From contig NZ_CP058990.1 in the NCBI RefSeq assembly GCF_019021925.1, forward strand, positions 922,001 through 986,000: 64,000 bases of DNA. Reading direction: 5' to 3'. The notes under the pieces were generated by a model, which searched no databases, was not told the DNA's origin, and was given only the letters and a program-made list of their open reading frames with translations. Below, one piece after another: positions 56,702 to 64,000 of the stretch. Each line of letters begins with the position of its first letter. The first letter of the stretch is position 1. A program made the position numbers and the translations under genes. Origin of the DNA: Cellulophaga sp. HaHaR_3_176 (GTDB lineage: Bacteria > Bacteroidota > Bacteroidia > Flavobacteriales > Flavobacteriaceae).

Positions 56702-57697
56702 ATGGATATAGGATTTAAAGAGATATTAATAAGCATTGTTATTTTAATTGTAATAGTCTTTTACGGCTTGAAAGCAAAATATATGGTATCAGAAAAGGTA
56801 GCCACTCAAAACTTAGAAACCTTTTTAGCTGCTAATTATGGAGAACTTTTAGAGTATAGTGACTTAAAACGATTTTTTAATTCAGGTAATATGAACCCGA
56901 ATTGTTTTTCGGTAAGGGTATATCAAAAAAAAGAACCTAGAGTAGAGCTTTTCATCACTTTTGATGCTAAAACCATAGCAACACAAACCGATATAGCTTC
57001 TGATTATCCAGATGGATTATCTTTTCATGAACGGTATTTACAACGAATTGCTGTAGTTGAAATACATGATGTTATTTCTGCAAAAATGAAACCTCTTGGG
57101 GTTGATTTAGTTTGGGATTATAATGAAGTGTTTTTTAATCTTGAAGCAAAATATTCAGAGGCTGAGGTGCTTGAGAAATCGGATTACTTTCTAAGCCTGT
57201 TTAAAGTTGAAGATTCTGAGCTTTTAGGTTATTATCATGAACTTTCTTTAATCTTAAATATTACATCAAAAAATAATATTAGCTTAGTACGAGAGTTAGT
57301 GCAAGAAGATGGTATTTGGAGTTTTAAAACGATAAAATTATACACTAAAGCTGCTGATTTTGAACGTATAAGAAATGACATAAAGAAAGAGTTAACTACG
57401 TATTTAGATGCGAACTACCCAACACAAAAACTGTATGATTATTACGATACGTATGTGGCACCGAATGATTTTTCTAAGCTGCTTTATATTGAGTTTACAG
57501 AAGCTGAAAAAACCAAGCAAGAAAAGGAAAAACAGCAAAAAGGAGTTTGGGTTTCTCCAGTTACAGGCTATACTGTTATGTACTGGAATTTAGAAAAAGG
57601 AAACATAAAGCAAATTGGTTTTGTAGCGACAGATAATACCATCATTATGGAAGATGTTTTAGAAAAAGAAATAGCTGTTTTTTTAGAGCGGGCATAG
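56702..57697 (+). CDS. Hypothetical protein with one N-terminal membrane anchor
   Basis: 331 residues. A single helix at about 8-25 (ILISIVILIVIVFYGLKAK) anchors a soluble remainder. That part is alpha/beta in character (SFHERYLQRIAVVEIHDVIS, ELTTYLDANYPTQKLYDYYD) and not recognised. It is transcribed alone between the cstA terminator and the array of cassettes, and its end is the last plus-strand gene of the window. Confidence 0.65.
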   Translation: MDIGFKEILISIVILIVIVFYGLKAKYMVSEKVATQNLETFLAANYGELLEYSDLKRFFNSGNMNPNCFSVRVYQKKEPRVELFITFDAKTIATQTDIASDYPDGLSFHERYLQRIAVVEIHDVISAKMKPLGVDLVWDYNEVFFNLEAKYSEAEVLEKSDYFLSLFKVEDSELLGYYHELSLILNITSKNNISLVRELVQEDGIWSFKTIKLYTKAADFERIRNDIKKELTTYLDANYPTQKLYDYYDTYVAPNDFSKLLYIEFTEAEKTKQEKEKQQKGVWVSPVTGYTVMYWNLEKGNIKQIGFVATDNTIIMEDVLEKEIAVFLERA

Positions 57698-57765
57698 GCG
57701 TTCTGAGTTAGTGTAATTGTTAATCGATGTCATGTATCAATAACTTTCTTTGTTGTAACCAGTTT

Positions 57766-58542
57766 TTATTCGTTTTTGAAAATCCATTCCATATTTAAAA
57801 ATTCATAAATAAGGCTTGATGAATTTTCAATAGAATTTTTTATATCGTTTTTATCTCTTTTTTTTACTGATTTTCCGAATTTCTCTATAAGTTGACTATT
57901 CAATAAGTCTCGCTGATTTAAAGTCAATACCGAGCATTGTTCATCTTTGTTATTAAGACTCTCTTTAACTAGCGTCAAACGAATTTCAAGCGAAATTTCT
58001 TTAATTGAACTTAAATTAATTTTGTTTTGCTTGATCAATAATTTATTCCTTTCTATTACTTCATTTACGGGATGTTTTTTTAAAATTATAAAATTCAAAA
58101 ACTCATAATTCAATGCAGTTAAGTCATTTATTAAAAAGGATAAATCAATTGCTGATTTTCTTATTTTTCTGTTCTCACTTTGGGTATATTTATATATACT
58201 GTCATTAGCTATAGAGAGATGATTTAATGCTTCATTATATGCATCGATGTTCGCTATTAATATTTTAGTATTAGTATTATTTTCAAGTTTTGAATAAAAT
58301 TTATTTGTCGCTTCATTAAGTTTTGAAAAGATTTCTATACAATCGTTAACAAATTTAAATTCTTCATTTTCAGATTCAACCTTTATTTTCATATATGACA
58401 ATTCTCTCATTTGGTCAATTTTTTTAGCAGACACTAACTCTCTAGGAAGAAGCTTCTCAGAAGCTATTATAGCTATGTTAGTTTTACTATTTCCAAAAAT
58501 AATTGCGGTTATAAAAAACGATAATATTATAAGTATTCTCAT
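57766..58542 (-). CDS. Exported hypothetical protein, cassette gene
   Basis: 258 residues, signal-like N-terminus (MRILIILSFFITAIIFG), then an all-helical body (FSKLNEATNKFYSKLENNTN, IRKSAIDLSFLINDLTALNY). Not recognised. It is the most downstream gene of the same-strand series separated by attC-like palindromes. An attC-like site starts 16 nt before its start codon. Downstream, 57698-57765 holds only an unclear remnant of such a site. Confidence 0.6.
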   Translation of the reverse strand: MRILIILSFFITAIIFGNSKTNIAIIASEKLLPRELVSAKKIDQMRELSYMKIKVESENEEFKFVNDCIEIFSKLNEATNKFYSKLENNTNTKILIANIDAYNEALNHLSIANDSIYKYTQSENRKIRKSAIDLSFLINDLTALNYEFLNFIILKKHPVNEVIERNKLLIKQNKINLSSIKEISLEIRLTLVKESLNNKDEQCSVLTLNQRDLLNSQLIEKFGKSVKKRDKNDIKNSIENSSSLIYEFLNMEWIFKNE

Positions 58543-58557
58543 AGTTTTTTTGAAATG

Positions 58558-58756
58558 GTGTAGAACGTCTCGTATATGAAAAGTAGCGCTGAAAAAGGCG
58601 ATAACTTTTCGGTTAAGTACGAGCCGAATTTTTTAATTTTCTTATTACCTTTATTTATCAATAAGCCAAATTTAAAAATTTGGCGACCTTGCAAAAATGC
58701 TCGAACCTTTGTGTTGGCAACGACTCGCACTATGTTTTATATAAGTTGTTAGCCAC
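58558..58756 (-). repeat. attC-like imperfect palindrome 1
   Basis: The ends GTGTAGAACGTCTCGTATAT (58558 on) and, on the other strand, GTGGCTAACAACTTATATAA (58756 back) are related inverted arms, each leading to an AGTAGCG or TAGTGCG block. The right end has GTTAGCC, close to the attC core GTTRRRY. The site follows the stop of the beta-lactamase-like gene by 2 nt. The interior is unique sequence. Confidence 0.6.
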
Positions 58757-58758
58757 AG

Positions 58759-59874
58759 TTATTTCTTCAGTTTCTGTATTTCGGGAACAATATATTCGTC
58801 CAATAATTTTGTTGTTTGGTTATGCGATTCCATTCCTCCATTAAAATATGTGCTTGTTAAAACAACTACTAAATCTAAATCAGGGAAAACAGCTATTTTG
58901 TTACCACCTGTTCCTGACATAAAGTACGCCTTTTCTTTATTCTCTTTTCCAAATTCGGAAAGCCACCATAAATATCCATATTCATAATCAAACATACCAA
59001 CTTCTGAATGTGCTGTTGTCGATTGTTTTATAAAGTCAGTCGATATAATTTGTTCGTTATTCCATTTGCCACTGTTCAAGTATAATTGCCCGAGTTTGAG
59101 GAAATCCCTACTTTTTAGTCCTAAACCTCCACCTGTCATTGGTAAACCTGTCGGTGTTATTTGCCAATGGTAATCTGTGATGCCTAATTTTGAGAAAAGA
59201 GCTTTGTCTGCATAATTTTCCAATGAGCCTGAAACGCTATTAATTATATCGCCCAAAACAACAACTCCTGCTGTACAATAACTAAAACTTCTGCCGTATT
59301 TTGTGTCTTTTGGTTTAGTTTTCCATTCGGGAAATCCTTTTATCGGCAAGTCCCAATAAAATTTAACCCAATCTTCGATTATATACATTTTTTCTTCTTG
59401 ACCGCGAGAATTTTGGTCCCAATCATCGCATTCCAAAATCGAAGACATCGTTAACAAATCCTCAATGGTAATTTCGTCTTTTCGGCTGTCGGAATTTTGT
59501 AAATCTTTGACTTTTGAATATTTGGATGCTTTTTCATTGACCGATTTTAACGAGCCATCTTTAATTAAACTACCAATAAGAGTTCCTGTTATAGTTTTTG
59601 TTGCGGAACGAGTATTATGTTTCGTGTCAGAATTGTTGTCGTTGTAATAATTTTCAAAAATAACTTTTCCGTTATGGGCAATTACAACGCTGGAAATCTC
59701 TTTAAAGTGGCCTTTGGTTATAAGGCTGTCCATTTTTTGGATTTTCGTGTTATTTTTTAGTTGATTTTCCGTTTTCCAACCGTCGTTGTTTTCGATTGGC
59801 GTAAATGGATTATTTTGTGCGTTTAGATTGAAGCTGATAAACGCAATTAATCCAAGAAGATTGATTTTTTTCAT
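58759..59874 (-). CDS. Serine hydrolase, class C beta-lactamase/DD-peptidase family (PF00144)
   Basis: 371 residues with a signal peptide (MKKINLLGLIAFISFNLNAQ). The active-site serine is Ser90 in SATK (Ser90, Lys93). Tyr199 in SYCTAG stands in for the YxN motif, and SGTGGNK (320-326) for the third motif. TMSSILECDDW and a G-L-x-x-K-x-R-D-F-L-K-L-G-Q-L-Y-L-N-S block are typical of the broad serine beta-lactamase-like family, most of which are esterases or peptidases. Resistance to beta-lactams cannot be claimed. A cassette gene: attC-like sites lie on both sides. Confidence 0.88.
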   Translation of the reverse strand: MKKINLLGLIAFISFNLNAQNNPFTPIENNDGWKTENQLKNNTKIQKMDSLITKGHFKEISSVVIAHNGKVIFENYYNDNNSDTKHNTRSATKTITGTLIGSLIKDGSLKSVNEKASKYSKVKDLQNSDSRKDEITIEDLLTMSSILECDDWDQNSRGQEEKMYIIEDWVKFYWDLPIKGFPEWKTKPKDTKYGRSFSYCTAGVVVLGDIINSVSGSLENYADKALFSKLGITDYHWQITPTGLPMTGGGLGLKSRDFLKLGQLYLNSGKWNNEQIISTDFIKQSTTAHSEVGMFDYEYGYLWWLSEFGKENKEKAYFMSGTGGNKIAVFPDLDLVVVLTSTYFNGGMESHNQTTKLLDEYIVPEIQKLKK

Positions 59875-59953
59875 TTGTTGATTAGATTTTTGATTGATGA
59901 TTTTATCTATCTGACGCCAATGTTCAATTTATGTTACGTTTTTTTTTATAATT

Positions 59954-60103
59954 GTGGCTAACATTTATGTATAAGAATAGTTGCGTGTTTGTAACGTCTG
60001 ATTTTCCGAAGGAAAATCCATAAGATTTAGCGACTTCATAAATATACACAGACCTTTCGTTTTCACCCTAAAGTCCGCATTACGTTTAGGCATTGTTGGC
60101 AAC
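59954..60103 (-). repeat. attC-like imperfect palindrome 2
   Basis: Arms GTGGCTAACATTTATGTATA (59954 on) and, on the other strand, TTGCCAACAATGCCTAAACG (60101 back) are inverted relatives of each other, with TTGCG/ATGCG at their inner ends. The inside (60015-60062) is almost identical to 63942-63989 in site 4: ATCCATAAGATTTAGCGACT, then AAATATACACAGACCTTTCG. Confidence 0.65.
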
Positions 60104-60109
60104 AGTTAT

Positions 60110-60643
60110 TTATTTCCATTCCCATGATAAATTTTCGAACAAGGGGATTTTCAATTCTTCCCATTTCGTCTTAATTAATTCCCAGTTATCGATTCCTTTT
60201 TTTGAAATAATAAATGAAGTGCCATTTGTAAGTTTAATAAAAAAATTATTTTGAGTTTCATTAATTTTTTCAATTTCAGATATTTTAGTTTTCCTTTCTC
60301 CGTCATTCTCTTTGGTAATTATATGTTCAGAAGTAAACTCCATAGTTTCTTTTTCTCCGACCCTGTCAGCGTAACTGTTTTTCACAATCTTTGTGTAGTG
60401 TTTTCTAAGTTTCGTTTTGTAAATTTTGGTATAGAAAACTAAAGTTAAGATTGCTGAAATTACCAATAATACTGCAAATATCGTTTGGTTGTGATTATAC
60501 AAATCAAAAGCAAAATATAGTAAAAGTCCAACCAGAAATACTTTGGATATATTTAGGGTTTTCATCGTGTTCTTGTTTTCGTCTATTGAAAATAAATGAT
60601 ATTCGATGAAGTTTTCTTCTCTTAATATATACTCAATTTTCAT
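60110..60643 (-). CDS. YcxB-like membrane protein, cassette gene
   Basis: 177 residues with two membrane helices (about 32-48 and 52-70: FLVGLLLYFAFDLYNHNQTI, FAVLLVISAILTLVFYTK). The C-terminal half has the YcxB-like pattern: TMEFTSEHIITKENDGERKT, followed by a TKISEIEKINETQNNFFIKL strand region. YcxB-like proteins have a PH-like fold and unknown function. The stop is followed within a few bases by attC-like site 2, and site 3 ends just upstream of its start. This exact packing is the mark of a cassette. Confidence 0.7.
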   Translation of the reverse strand: MKIEYILREENFIEYHLFSIDENKNTMKTLNISKVFLVGLLLYFAFDLYNHNQTIFAVLLVISAILTLVFYTKIYKTKLRKHYTKIVKNSYADRVGEKETMEFTSEHIITKENDGERKTKISEIEKINETQNNFFIKLTNGTSFIISKKGIDNWELIKTKWEELKIPLFENLSWEWK

Positions 60644-60657
60644 TCTTGCTTATAATT

Positions 60658-60791
60658 GTTGCCAACGGTCTAGTATAAGAATAGTAGCGGATTATTACTC
60701 ACTAGCTTTTCGGTTTATACCTGTCCTTTGTTTTATTATTTATCTTTCGTTTAAGCACCAAAACCGCTATTTTTTATATACGTTGTTGGGC
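60658..60791 (-). repeat. attC-like imperfect palindrome 3
   Basis: Outer arms GTTGCCAACGGTCTAGTATA (60658 on) and, on the other strand, GCCCAACAACGTATATAAAA (60791 back). Both run into TAGTAGCGG or ATAGCGG. GTTGGGC at 60785-60791 fits the attC core GTTRRRY exactly. The stop codon of hamB lies inside the right arm, so the last codons (NAQQRI) are encoded by the repeat. Confidence 0.7.
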
Positions 60792-62888
60792 GTTCGTTAT
60801 TTTTATTCCGTCAAAGAAATAGTTCAATATATATTTATCAAATTCATCTAAATTATTCGTTTTTTCAAAAGTCATTTCTTTTCCAATTTCATTAAGGCTT
60901 TCAACTACGCTATGAATTGTCAATTCGTCATCATAGAAATTAATAATTTCCGATTCGTGTAGTTTTTTTGAAATCATTCGAGGTAAACCATATTCCTCTA
61001 ATTGAAATACCACTTTTGGAAGAAATGCGTGAGAACACCACTTTATAAATTTAGAAATATCATATTGTTTATCCTTTAAAATTCTTTTTTGCAAAGTGTT
61101 TAAATCATTTAATAGAGCAGAAAACTTATATGTTACGTTTCTTTCTAAAAGGAAGAATTTATCGATGCCAACGTCATAATCTTCAAGTTCTTTTAGTAAT
61201 TCGGGAATGGATTTACTCCAATTATATGCCATAATCTTAATAAACTCGACAAAAGTTTTATAAGCCGTATCCCAATTCCCTGGTTGTAATTTTATAACCT
61301 TGTATAATAATCTATCCCAATTTTCAGGTTTGAACTCATTCAAATAATATAAACCATTCCACTCTTCTGGATTTGTAGATAGGTCAATAGCGATTGTTTT
61401 AATTAATTCGGAATTACTTGATTGAAATGCAGATTCTGCTTTAAGCTCGTCATATGCTTGGACGCCTATAAGTTCGCCCATTTCATCATTATAGATTTTT
61501 AATTTTGCAACTTGTTCTTTAGTTAGTAATCCTTCATATTTCGTATCGTTTAAATCTCCCAATATTTCATCTGGGAATGGAATATCTAATTGAGTTTGAC
61601 CTTCAATTGGTGGTTCTTCCAAAATGTATATTTTACCAATAAAGTGTTTAAACATTCTACCGCCTCTTCCAATAATATTTTTGTAAGTGAAGTCATCTAG
61701 TTTTGCACTTCCTTTTCTATTTCGCCATATTATTACATTTTCTGCTGACGTATTCACTCCTTCTATAATTGAAGAAGTTGAAATCAAATTACGAATACCT
61801 GTTTCTTCTTCAAATAATTTTACTTGAATTTGACTTAACGAACGGTGTAATCTACCATTATGGACACCAATTTCACGACTAATTAACTTTGTTAAACTCC
61901 AATTGACATCATAGTTTTTAGAAAGCCAATCTGCAAACATATCAAGCAGTTCATTTTTTACAGGTTCGTATGTGTCAAGAAAAAGATAAGTTAAGCTATC
62001 TATGTTTGAATATGTACCTGCATAAATCAAAGATTTCCCTCTATTTTTAGATAATATTTCTAATAGTTTTTCGCTCTTTTCTTCGTTGTTTTTTATTTGA
62101 TTATATAATTTGTGTTTTTCTAAAAAAACTGTATTAAAATCAAGCCTGATAAATTCCATATCTTCTGTAAATGGATTGCTATCTATAGACGTGATATTTG
62201 GTGCGAGATAATATTTTTGATTAGATTTAGAACCAAGTTTTATCATTGCTCTAATTAAGCTAGGCGACCTTTCTTTATCAAACTTACTACTAGCTTTATA
62301 GAATTCATCAACAATCATTATATCAAATGATTCTACAATATTGATGTAATTCATTGCTCTTTCTTGCGGAAATATAAAAATATTTTTATCTGATAATTTA
62401 ACATCAGAGGTAGTTATGATTTTATATTCGTGTGCAAATTTTTTATATAGTCTTCTTCTAGTTTCATCTGTTAGGGCTAATGTTGGTACAATAATTAATA
62501 CGTTGTTCGGTTTTTTGATTTTGATGTAAGCGTCAATTACAAAACTCTTCCCAAAACTTGTAGGTGCACTTACAGCAATATTTCTACCCTCTAAAAGACT
62601 TTTAAGCAATAATGATTGTTCTCTATGAAGCGTTAGTGGTTTTTCCTCTCCAACGTCCACTTTAAAAGCATTGTAGATAAATCGTTCTTCCCAATTGGAG
62701 GTTTCGGGTTCTAAATAGGGGAAAAGTCCTGTTTCTCTTATTAAATGGTTAACCAATGGATTATAGGCTAATTCATTAGTGTTATGGTAGTCTAATAACT
62801 TAATGAGTTCTTGTCGAGCTTCATTTTCTTGTTTACCAACTAGAAGTTCATTAATTATATGGCATTTATCAAAAACTTGTTCTTGCAT
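60774..62888 (-). CDS. hamB: HamB, superfamily 2 helicase of the Hachiman anti-phage system
   Basis: 704 residues. Motif I APTSFGKS (108-115), motif Ia IVPTLALTDETRRRLY, motif II DEFY (194-197), a motif IV-V region LISTSSIIEGVN and motif VI IGRGGR make a Ski2-like DEAD helicase. Its partner is the DUF1837 nuclease encoded 2 nt upstream. In Hachiman, HamB forms a complex with HamA and releases its nuclease activity on sensing DNA ends or ssDNA. That mechanism is known for homologues and assumed here. The C-terminal part is all-helical and less conserved. Confidence 0.88.
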   Translation of the reverse strand: MQEQVFDKCHIINELLVGKQENEARQELIKLLDYHNTNELAYNPLVNHLIRETGLFPYLEPETSNWEERFIYNAFKVDVGEEKPLTLHREQSLLLKSLLEGRNIAVSAPTSFGKSFVIDAYIKIKKPNNVLIIVPTLALTDETRRRLYKKFAHEYKIITTSDVKLSDKNIFIFPQERAMNYINIVESFDIMIVDEFYKASSKFDKERSPSLIRAMIKLGSKSNQKYYLAPNITSIDSNPFTEDMEFIRLDFNTVFLEKHKLYNQIKNNEEKSEKLLEILSKNRGKSLIYAGTYSNIDSLTYLFLDTYEPVKNELLDMFADWLSKNYDVNWSLTKLISREIGVHNGRLHRSLSQIQVKLFEEETGIRNLISTSSIIEGVNTSAENVIIWRNRKGSAKLDDFTYKNIIGRGGRMFKHFIGKIYILEEPPIEGQTQLDIPFPDEILGDLNDTKYEGLLTKEQVAKLKIYNDEMGELIGVQAYDELKAESAFQSSNSELIKTIAIDLSTNPEEWNGLYYLNEFKPENWDRLLYKVIKLQPGNWDTAYKTFVEFIKIMAYNWSKSIPELLKELEDYDVGIDKFFLLERNVTYKFSALLNDLNTLQKRILKDKQYDISKFIKWCSHAFLPKVVFQLEEYGLPRMISKKLHESEIINFYDDELTIHSVVESLNEIGKEMTFEKTNNLDEFDKYILNYFFDGIKITNAQQRI

Positions 62889-62890
62889 AT

Positions 62891-63811
62891 CTAATCTCTA
62901 TAAACTTTTGCTATTTGAATAAATTTATCTACGATTTTATCTTTGTCAGCAATAGGAAACAGGATAATATGAAAATTAATTTTCTCGTATAAATGTACAT
63001 CTGTACATTTTTGAATTTGCTTTTTAAAATATTGTGTCGCTCTGTCTTTGTGATAATCTACAATCCCTTGTTTATATTCTACTGTTAAAGCTGTTCCTGT
63101 TTTTGTTTGTTCGCATTCATATAAAAGTAAAATAGGAATATTTAAAATTGGCTTTATTTTATCAATTGATACACCTTGAGAAAGACTTGCTTTTATTTTG
63201 GTTTTTAATTCATCTGAAATTTCGTCAAAATCGTTGATGTCACTTAAATTGGTAATAATGCTATTCTCTTTTTTGATTTTTTCTAAACTAATAGAATCTT
63301 TCACAGAAGTGATAATTGTGTCTAAACGGGCATTTTCGATACTGTTGTAAAATTTAGATTCTCCAAACCATAGTGAAAAAGAGTCTTCTGATTCTATAAC
63401 AATGTGGACACTGTCAGAACCTTTGGCTTCATCTTTTGTGTTTTGTTTGTAAAATATTTTAGGTACAATTGGAAGAGCAGAATAGTGGTCTTTCATTATT
63501 CCATAAAGAACAATTTCTGCAATTTCACTACCTCTACCAATTGCATCTACAGATTCAATTAATCGTAATTTCTTTGCTGATTCAGAAAGAATTGTACCTG
63601 CACCATCATTCAACAAAGCTTGTCTTTCGCTATGACTCAAAGCAGTTTCTTTAATGTTATCCCAAACATAGTTTTGAAACTTTTCATATCTCCATTCTCC
63701 ATTCTCAAAATCATTGATTATTCCAAGAACTGATTTGTTGTCAGTCGGACTTAAAGAGTTGTCTAATTTAACGTCATCAAATATGTTATTTACGATAATT
63801 TCAAATTTCAT
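62891..63811 (-). CDS. hamA: HamA, DUF1837 nuclease of the Hachiman anti-phage system
   Basis: 306 residues. The DUF1837 PD-(D/E)xK core is visible: Glu97 in GSEIAEIVLYG, Asp133 in KGSDSVHIVIE, and Glu151/Lys153 in LWFGESKFYNS. A following ENARLDTIITSVKDSISLEK helix and a late basic segment belong to the domain. HamA degrades DNA after activation in studied systems. The stop is 2 nt before the hamB ATG, the normal Hachiman order. No attC-like site lies between them, so both genes travel as one cassette. Confidence 0.87.
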   Translation of the reverse strand: MKFEIIVNNIFDDVKLDNSLSPTDNKSVLGIINDFENGEWRYEKFQNYVWDNIKETALSHSERQALLNDGAGTILSESAKKLRLIESVDAIGRGSEIAEIVLYGIMKDHYSALPIVPKIFYKQNTKDEAKGSDSVHIVIESEDSFSLWFGESKFYNSIENARLDTIITSVKDSISLEKIKKENSIITNLSDINDFDEISDELKTKIKASLSQGVSIDKIKPILNIPILLLYECEQTKTGTALTVEYKQGIVDYHKDRATQYFKKQIQKCTDVHLYEKINFHIILFPIADKDKIVDKFIQIAKVYRD

Positions 63812-63828
63812 TCTCGGTTTTTTTTTAA

Positions 63829-64000
63829 TGACGCCTAACGGTTTAGCTAAGCGTAGTGCGGAGGCAAGGAAACTTTTCGTTTCCGTCTGAGCACGAAGCT
63901 AAAGCTTATTGTTTAGTTTTGTTTTTTCTTGTCCAAAGCTAAATCCATAAGATTTAGCGACTTAGTAAATATACACAGACCTTTCGATTTAGTCCAAAAC
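63829..64000 (-). repeat. attC-like palindrome 4, cut by the window end
   Basis: Starts with ACGCCTAACGGTTTAGC; GCCTAAC (63833-63839) fits the attC core RYYYAAC exactly. The inside shares about 48 bases with site 2 (63942-63989). The other arm is beyond the window. An upstream gene of the array probably lies there. Confidence 0.6.

Follow-up and report, generated by a model that had tools for sequence, protein, structure and literature searches.

In an integron, the circular cassette carries one complete attC site; once the cassette is inserted, the last part of this attC precedes the gene and the remainder follows it. The closest described relatives of the locus considered here are the IntI integrons, with their sedentary chromosomal arrays and CALINs, and the likeness covers an integrase beside an attI-like site, cassettes that read one way, R and L arms, cognate cassette ends, a folded attC and an exchange within GTT (the last two read here from sequence). 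In known non-Vibrio sites, the bottom strand has a folding advantage of 2.1 to 3.1 kcal/mol (PMC5371416). The IntI-specific insertion has been called essential for integron function (PMC8138268); the same source describes an "integron-like" subgroup of tyrosine recombinases in which the insertion is not fully conserved, and its passages cited here link no insertion-free member to attI and attC arrays. For the Bacteroidetes, a large survey recalls, in the part cited, only cassette-less integrases and adds one complete integron, that of Salinibacter (PMC9024848), and a Tenacibaculum genome is reported as integron-free after IntegronFinder 2.0 (PMC10013915). Two other Tenacibaculum records carry an integrase of the type described below. 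We find no account of such a system from Bacteroidia in the literature within our scope, which leaves preprints and most subscription journals outside.

We consider a stretch of 64,000 nucleotides (the window) from the genome of Cellulophaga sp. HaHaR_3_176 (G000 in our coordinates; other G and L numbers stand for the genomes and loci sampled). The first-pass annotation of the window had pointed to four gaps on one strand as attC-like palindromes, and had proposed either an integrase-less cluster of cassettes (CALIN) or a poorly described Bacteroidota cassette system. We trained a covariance model (R2) on 30 sites, none of them taken from the array of the window. It gives exactly four matches in the 64 kb at E≤0.1, all on the minus strand and in these four gaps, with E values between 3.4e-12 and 3.3e-29. 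The features of the region are as follows (positions in the window).

56702..57697, plus strand: conserved flanking gene; in six same-genus genomes the DNA stays similar up to 57,686, the array start, or to just short of it.
57690..57765, minus strand: degraded left arm that ends the array, read by eye and without a model match; its core GGTTACAAC is not the expected cognate.
57766..58542, minus strand: cassette gene of 258 aa, without a family match in profile searches.
58555..58759, minus strand: attC-like site A, left core GTGGCTAAC, right core GTTCTACACC (E 3.9e-28).
58759..59874, minus strand: cassette gene of 371 aa, serine hydrolase of the beta-lactamase family PF00144.
59951..60106, minus strand: attC-like site B, left core GTTGCCAAC, right core GTTAGCCAC (E 2.9e-13).
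60110..60643, minus strand: cassette gene of 177 aa, YcxB-like, PF14317.
60655..60796, minus strand: attC-like site C, left core GCCCAAC, right core GTTGGCAAC (E 3.4e-12).
60774..62888, minus strand: HamB helicase of a Hachiman system (816 bits).
62891..63811, minus strand: HamA of the same Hachiman system (441 bits).
63828..64000, minus strand: attC-like site D, truncated by the window end (whole site G000:985828-986033), right core GTTAGGCGTC (E 3.3e-29).

The arms quoted in the first-pass annotation are correctly read: GTGGCTAAC, GTTGCCAAC and GCCCAAC are left cores, and GCCTAAC is the complement of the right core of the fourth site. Two sites do share their interior (60002-60072 and 63929-63999, 85% identity over 71 nt), all five cargo genes lie on the minus strand, and the stop of gene 60774-62888 falls within site C. 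Over all cassettes scored, the median distance from the stop to the left core that follows is 3 nt. AAC and GTT are invariant in many sites, and the remaining positions of RYYYAAC and GTTRRRY match partly, as judged by eye. The largest cassette of the window is a complete Hachiman system; HamA and HamB sit side by side, as is known for Hachiman, and here the two together are the cargo of a single recombination cassette. An Rfam scan of the whole window matched no family, and a tRNA scan of it gave none.

The array extends over about 22 kb in one direction and continues beyond the window to about G000:1,001.6 kb. From there down to 979.8 kb, 18 ORFs of at least 120 aa follow each other on one strand, with no ORF of that size among them on the opposite strand. 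The two-arm scan places 9 sites at G000 980.7-1000.6 kb; the integrase lies far off, at 1864 kb. The locus is thus a CALIN in the sense of at least two clustered attC with no integrase nearby, as counted with our own site models and not with those of IntegronFinder. We conclude that the window very probably contains an integrase-less, CALIN-like array of a Bacteroidia integron-type system that has an integrase lineage of its own, here called Fint.

What does the split of attC predict for the cores? Because the site is divided upon insertion, the core before a gene should complement the left core behind the same gene, and the two arms of one apparent site, which stem from different cassettes, should not pair at the core. 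Among 35 neighbouring pairs of the own genome (less than 6 kb apart, both cores found, window rows duplicating L041 omitted), a mean of 5.63 of the 7 variable positions pair, with 26 pairs at 6 or more and 15 perfect. Core pairs within a site reach 2.83/7 (0/40 perfect) and unrelated pairs 2.63/7 (21/2087 perfect), and the total of 197 for the neighbours is reached by none of 20,000 permutations (maximum 129). Nine of the 35 pairs stay below 6, some of them spanning an insertion sequence or a long gap. Within the window, the match is 7/7 for B to A and for C to B, and 5/7 for D to C; the right core of site B (981898), which enters two of these pairs, was set by hand from the candidate list after the script missed it, as was that of site 2512682. 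The relatives, with the own genome excluded, provide 66 pairs with a mean of 5.95/7 (55 at 6 or more), against 2.95 within sites.

The same division is seen position by position. In a set of 170 pairs, the other end of the own cassette is complementary at core positions 3-9 and 11-13 in 68-91%, core pairing within a site is about at the shuffled level, and the inner stem pairs better within the site. Of the first-pass description of palindromes with related arms, the hairpin stands, and sites do share it; at the core, however, it is the two ends of a cassette that are partners, and not the two arms of a site. Core pairing between the two arms of one site, being at chance level, is rejected. 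With pairing across the cassette at the core and inside the site at the inner stem, the exchange would lie within GTT.

A consensus hairpin derived from 33 short sites has 16 pairs, 12 of them with compensatory changes. When 139 reconstituted sites are folded with DNA parameters, the bottom strand is the stabler one in 128 (mean -31.8 against -29.0 kcal/mol for the top strand), and the gap of about 2.8 kcal/mol is similar to that of known non-Vibrio attC. At core position 10, a C stands opposite an A on the top strand in 121/139, which becomes a G-T wobble on the bottom strand. Both features are in line with the bottom strand being the one used, which is the case in known integrons. In size, the sites differ from IntI attC: the 219 that the two-arm scan returns fall into 91 of 117-132 nt and 125 of 182-192 nt (together 216/219), with 3 outside, one of which contains unknown bases; the core of the sites is also less strict than GTTRRRY. 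The two length classes are sharp, near 124 and 188 nt and so about 64 nt apart, with almost nothing between.

The first-pass annotation had also said what would tell against cassettes: sites without a common hairpin, repeats scattered or within operons, and a gene order fixed in relatives. The compensated hairpin has been given above. The repeats lie in one-way arrays, where the longest ORF of 163 cassettes is forward in 138, reverse in 6 and undecided in 19. For the gene order, the flanking gene has nine same-genus matches, of which the six above 90% identity were fetched for comparison. DNA similarity ends at window position 57,686 in four genomes and just before it in two; beyond the same flank, the scan finds sites in two of the six (G561, G553) and none in the other four, so that other cassettes, or none visible to the scan, follow. 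G561 and G562 contain segments of 2.8 and 3.9 kb that are 89-90% identical to the part of this array just outside the window and that sit at a different distance from the flank than in G000. The locus looks like a turnover spot for cassettes.

We turn to the rest of the genome, where the annotation had suggested looking for further copies and for a tyrosine recombinase. There are at least 64 sites in the own genome (E≤0.01, with 150 of 5316 first-look candidates scored), and a tyrosine recombinase of 375 aa (G000:1,863,972-1,865,099), about 880 kb from the array of the window, directly precedes an array. The proposal of a CALIN or a poorly described cassette system is borne out, the second half in particular, with the integrase elsewhere in the genome. 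An attI-like core, GTTGTAGCC, lies at +47 nt after the stop of this Fint, and the first cassette ends in GGCTACAAC, a match of 7/7. In the closest relatives the distance of this core from the integrase stop is nearly constant, at 47 to 50 nt. Of 48 loci, the own one included, 39 have a GTT core no more than 250 nt from the integrase stop that matches the left core of the first cassette (25 perfect), against 1.4% of 2256 in a control with exchanged cores. Between closely related integrases (L190, L191, L192; L196, L197, L198; L188, L189), a shared stretch runs to the GTT of attI, often preceded by a dyad, and the sequences diverge directly after it.

The sites are placed on one side of the integrase. 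At 70 relative loci (L062 and L066 not counted), the 207 sites that a two-arm scan trained on the own genome alone finds downstream all lie on the cassette strand (87, 89 and 31 in sets of 30, 20 and 20, the last set with a looser scan that asks for a score of 10 and a paired inner stem), with 0 on the other strand; upstream there are 0 on the cassette strand and 6 on the other. At least one downstream site is present in 46 of the 70 (18/30, 17/20 and 11/20). The scan finds none in the remaining 24, in many of which the contig ends soon after the gene; six loci (L114, L116, L201, L241, L248, L255) have more than 13 kb behind the integrase and still no site by scan, although L116 gives three profile matches. 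On a Chryseobacterium plasmid, the scan sees no site with a related integrase, and phage records searched with the integrase at E≤1e-40 gave no match. Most Fint loci have integrase and array co-directed, which differs from the IntI integrons. Two distant members, L111 and L256, have the array on the other side, reading away from the integrase in the classical divergent layout, with attI-like cores on the array side at 6/7 and 7/7. Two further loci may be mentioned: in L203 (G561:C1:3902756-3903864) the integrase beside a large array is split into two open frames, and in G559 (C1, about 2-70 kb) sites over about 70 kb beside the integrase form a candidate very large array. From this arrangement we infer that the cassettes recombine in a Fint-dependent manner and that Fint, about 880 kb away, serves the array of the window.

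Could this simply be a canonical IntI integron or CALIN, with ordinary attC served by an ordinary IntI? The anatomy is the same, the own Fint scores 202 bits with the IntI model, and in our tree (95 collected proteins minus L130, L182 and L186, plus 3 partial Protein Data Bank chains) Fint and IntI stand together against Xer at 100/98 with a midpoint root. The 202 bits are, however, below the cut-off of 265, and the own genome has no canonical IntI above it. All 48 Fint examined keep the catalytic residues, and the distance from the beta-strand Lys to the box II His is 64-65 residues (29/29 IntI have 106, and 15 Xer have 67-75), so that Fint lacks the IntI-specific insertion. The 30 IntI form one clade at 100/100 without any Fint, in a tree for which the program warns of long branches, and Fint forms a single group in 52% of bootstrap trees. 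We therefore consider a canonical IntI system very improbable. With these two features tested and both lacking, the insertion and a place in the IntI clade, we do not class the system as an IntI integron; as the insertion is not fully conserved in the "integron-like" subgroup, Fint may belong there. The own kind of integrase may also explain why standard integron searches missed the system. On this evidence, the window is very probably an integrase-less outpost of a non-IntI integron family.

A second alternative is that the housekeeping XerC/XerD move the cassettes. Both proteins are found in the own genome and are related, but the 18 Xer loci that served as controls contain no sites (nor do the 30 IntI control loci), and the arrays start behind Fint, with the attI-like core at its short distance in the closest relatives, which makes this reading highly unlikely. 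The own Fint does score 227 bits with NF040815 (cut-off 220), the model of archaeal XerA. XerA differs from Fint in lying on the Xer side of the tree, and we know of no role for it in cassettes. Finally, the sites might be palindromic repeats (REP-like, MITE-like or terminators) of the intergenic kind that do no more than follow a gene. Such repeats would also be imperfect palindromes behind stops in many copies per genome, but they are scarcely credible here, as they leave unexplained the complementarity between the two ends of a gene-sized segment, the one-sided placement behind one integrase family and the conserved sequence that ends at the GTT of attI.

Most Fint have a longer N-terminal part than IntI and Xer, with a median of 232 residues (from 152) before the first catalytic Arg, against 139 and 147. 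An AlphaFold2 model (mean pLDDT 81, pTM 0.56) places a small alpha/beta domain ahead of the usual two domains. Structure comparison barely probes this part, since the matches are taken up by the other domains. A HARP domain is matched in 2/53 members, and 10 further N-terminal fragments give 1 weak HARP and 4 weak DUF5710 matches. An identity with HARP is rejected: one of three fragments reaches 22.9 bits against a cut-off of 25, and the own protein gives none. Four members of 297 aa (L177, L178, L179, L184) are without the N-terminal domain, and three of their loci (L196, L197, L198) have sites and matching attI cores; these array-bearing short members would count against the domain being essential.

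For the integron-type system with Fint that we prefer, the following mechanism can be proposed. The integrase would bind the site as a single folded strand, probably the bottom one, and an exchange inside the GTT core would free the cassette as a circle. In the circle, both cassette ends would meet and form the complete hairpin site. The circle would then insert at the GTT of the attI-like site close behind the integrase gene, or alternatively in trans into other arrays, such as that of the window. The support in sequence consists of the cognate ends, the hairpin, the attI-like cores, the one-way arrays, the differing cassettes at conserved flanks and the catalytic residues.

The orientation of the sites can be compared with that of replication. 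All of the 64 sites found in the own genome are on the minus strand from 308 to 1657 kb and on the plus strand from 1835 to 3244 kb, and the 16S genes or fragments are on the plus strand at 0.54 Mb and on the minus strand at 2.01 and 2.58 Mb. By these directions, the cassettes face the replication fork, with the bottom strand on the lagging-strand template, which is unusual. The GC skew of some non-array pieces agrees with the 16S directions; that of all fetched pieces in bulk is uninformative. Sedentary arrays have been described as tending to carry the recombinogenic strand on the leading-strand template (PMC11023631), and the orientation of most known sedentary integrons is opposite to that of the 64 sites. 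The G559 array most likely has the same orientation as G000, judged from its 16S genes, and two site clusters in G560 do not fit it. The fork-facing orientation is firm in G000; in other genomes it is a tendency.

Sites occur in each of the other 17 genomes from the genus (11 to at least 110), and five IntI-bearing genomes from outside the order have none of this type. At E≤1e-60, Fint is present in 16/18 genomes of the genus, 44/196 of the order and 122/295 of the class Bacteroidia; G560 and G569 have 63 and 34 sites, yet no integrase at this threshold. Canonical IntI exceeds its cut-off in 105/395 genomes of the phylum, a count given without the share of the class, and the 108 phylum genomes with any IntI match include one from the same class and none from the same order.

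Besides the Hachiman system, the cargo includes, in the array behind the own integrase, proteins that match no Pfam family, a regulator of the AraC type and an insertion sequence. An insertion sequence with HTH_Tnp_1 and rve ORFs (L046:10846-12150, end TGACCCGTCCTG) has its end exactly 14 nt past the GTT of a site in 10/11 copies, once at attI (L194); it is also found at sites in L038, L039, L043, L044, L050, L188, L194 and L203, and seems to target these recombination sites. The integrase has matches in 67 plasmid records, 50 of them from Acinetobacter. In two of the sampled loci, an Acinetobacter indicus plasmid and plasmid pHH1107 (L258, L259), tet(X3) is preceded, at a distance of 189 bp, by a shortened relative of Fint (58% identity over residues 146-375). 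This gap has a dyad and, 18 nt ahead of tet(X3), a GTT, an arrangement like that of attI. We rejected tet(X3) as a cassette: there is no attC-like site behind the gene and the best cognate score is 4/7, so this is a lead only.

Seen more widely, and only tentatively, Fint could represent a second integron lineage across the Bacteroidia that recombines folded sites without the IntI insertion, either of independent origin or as an ancestral insertion-free form. If our main reading of an integron-type system with Fint holds, about four in ten of the sampled Bacteroidia (122/295) would carry the integrase of a cassette-capturing system. The function of the IntI-specific insertion would become testable, the arrays would be a counter-example to the leading-strand-template trend for the recombinogenic strand of sedentary arrays, and there would be a route to mining defence and resistance cargo in marine and soil Bacteroidia.
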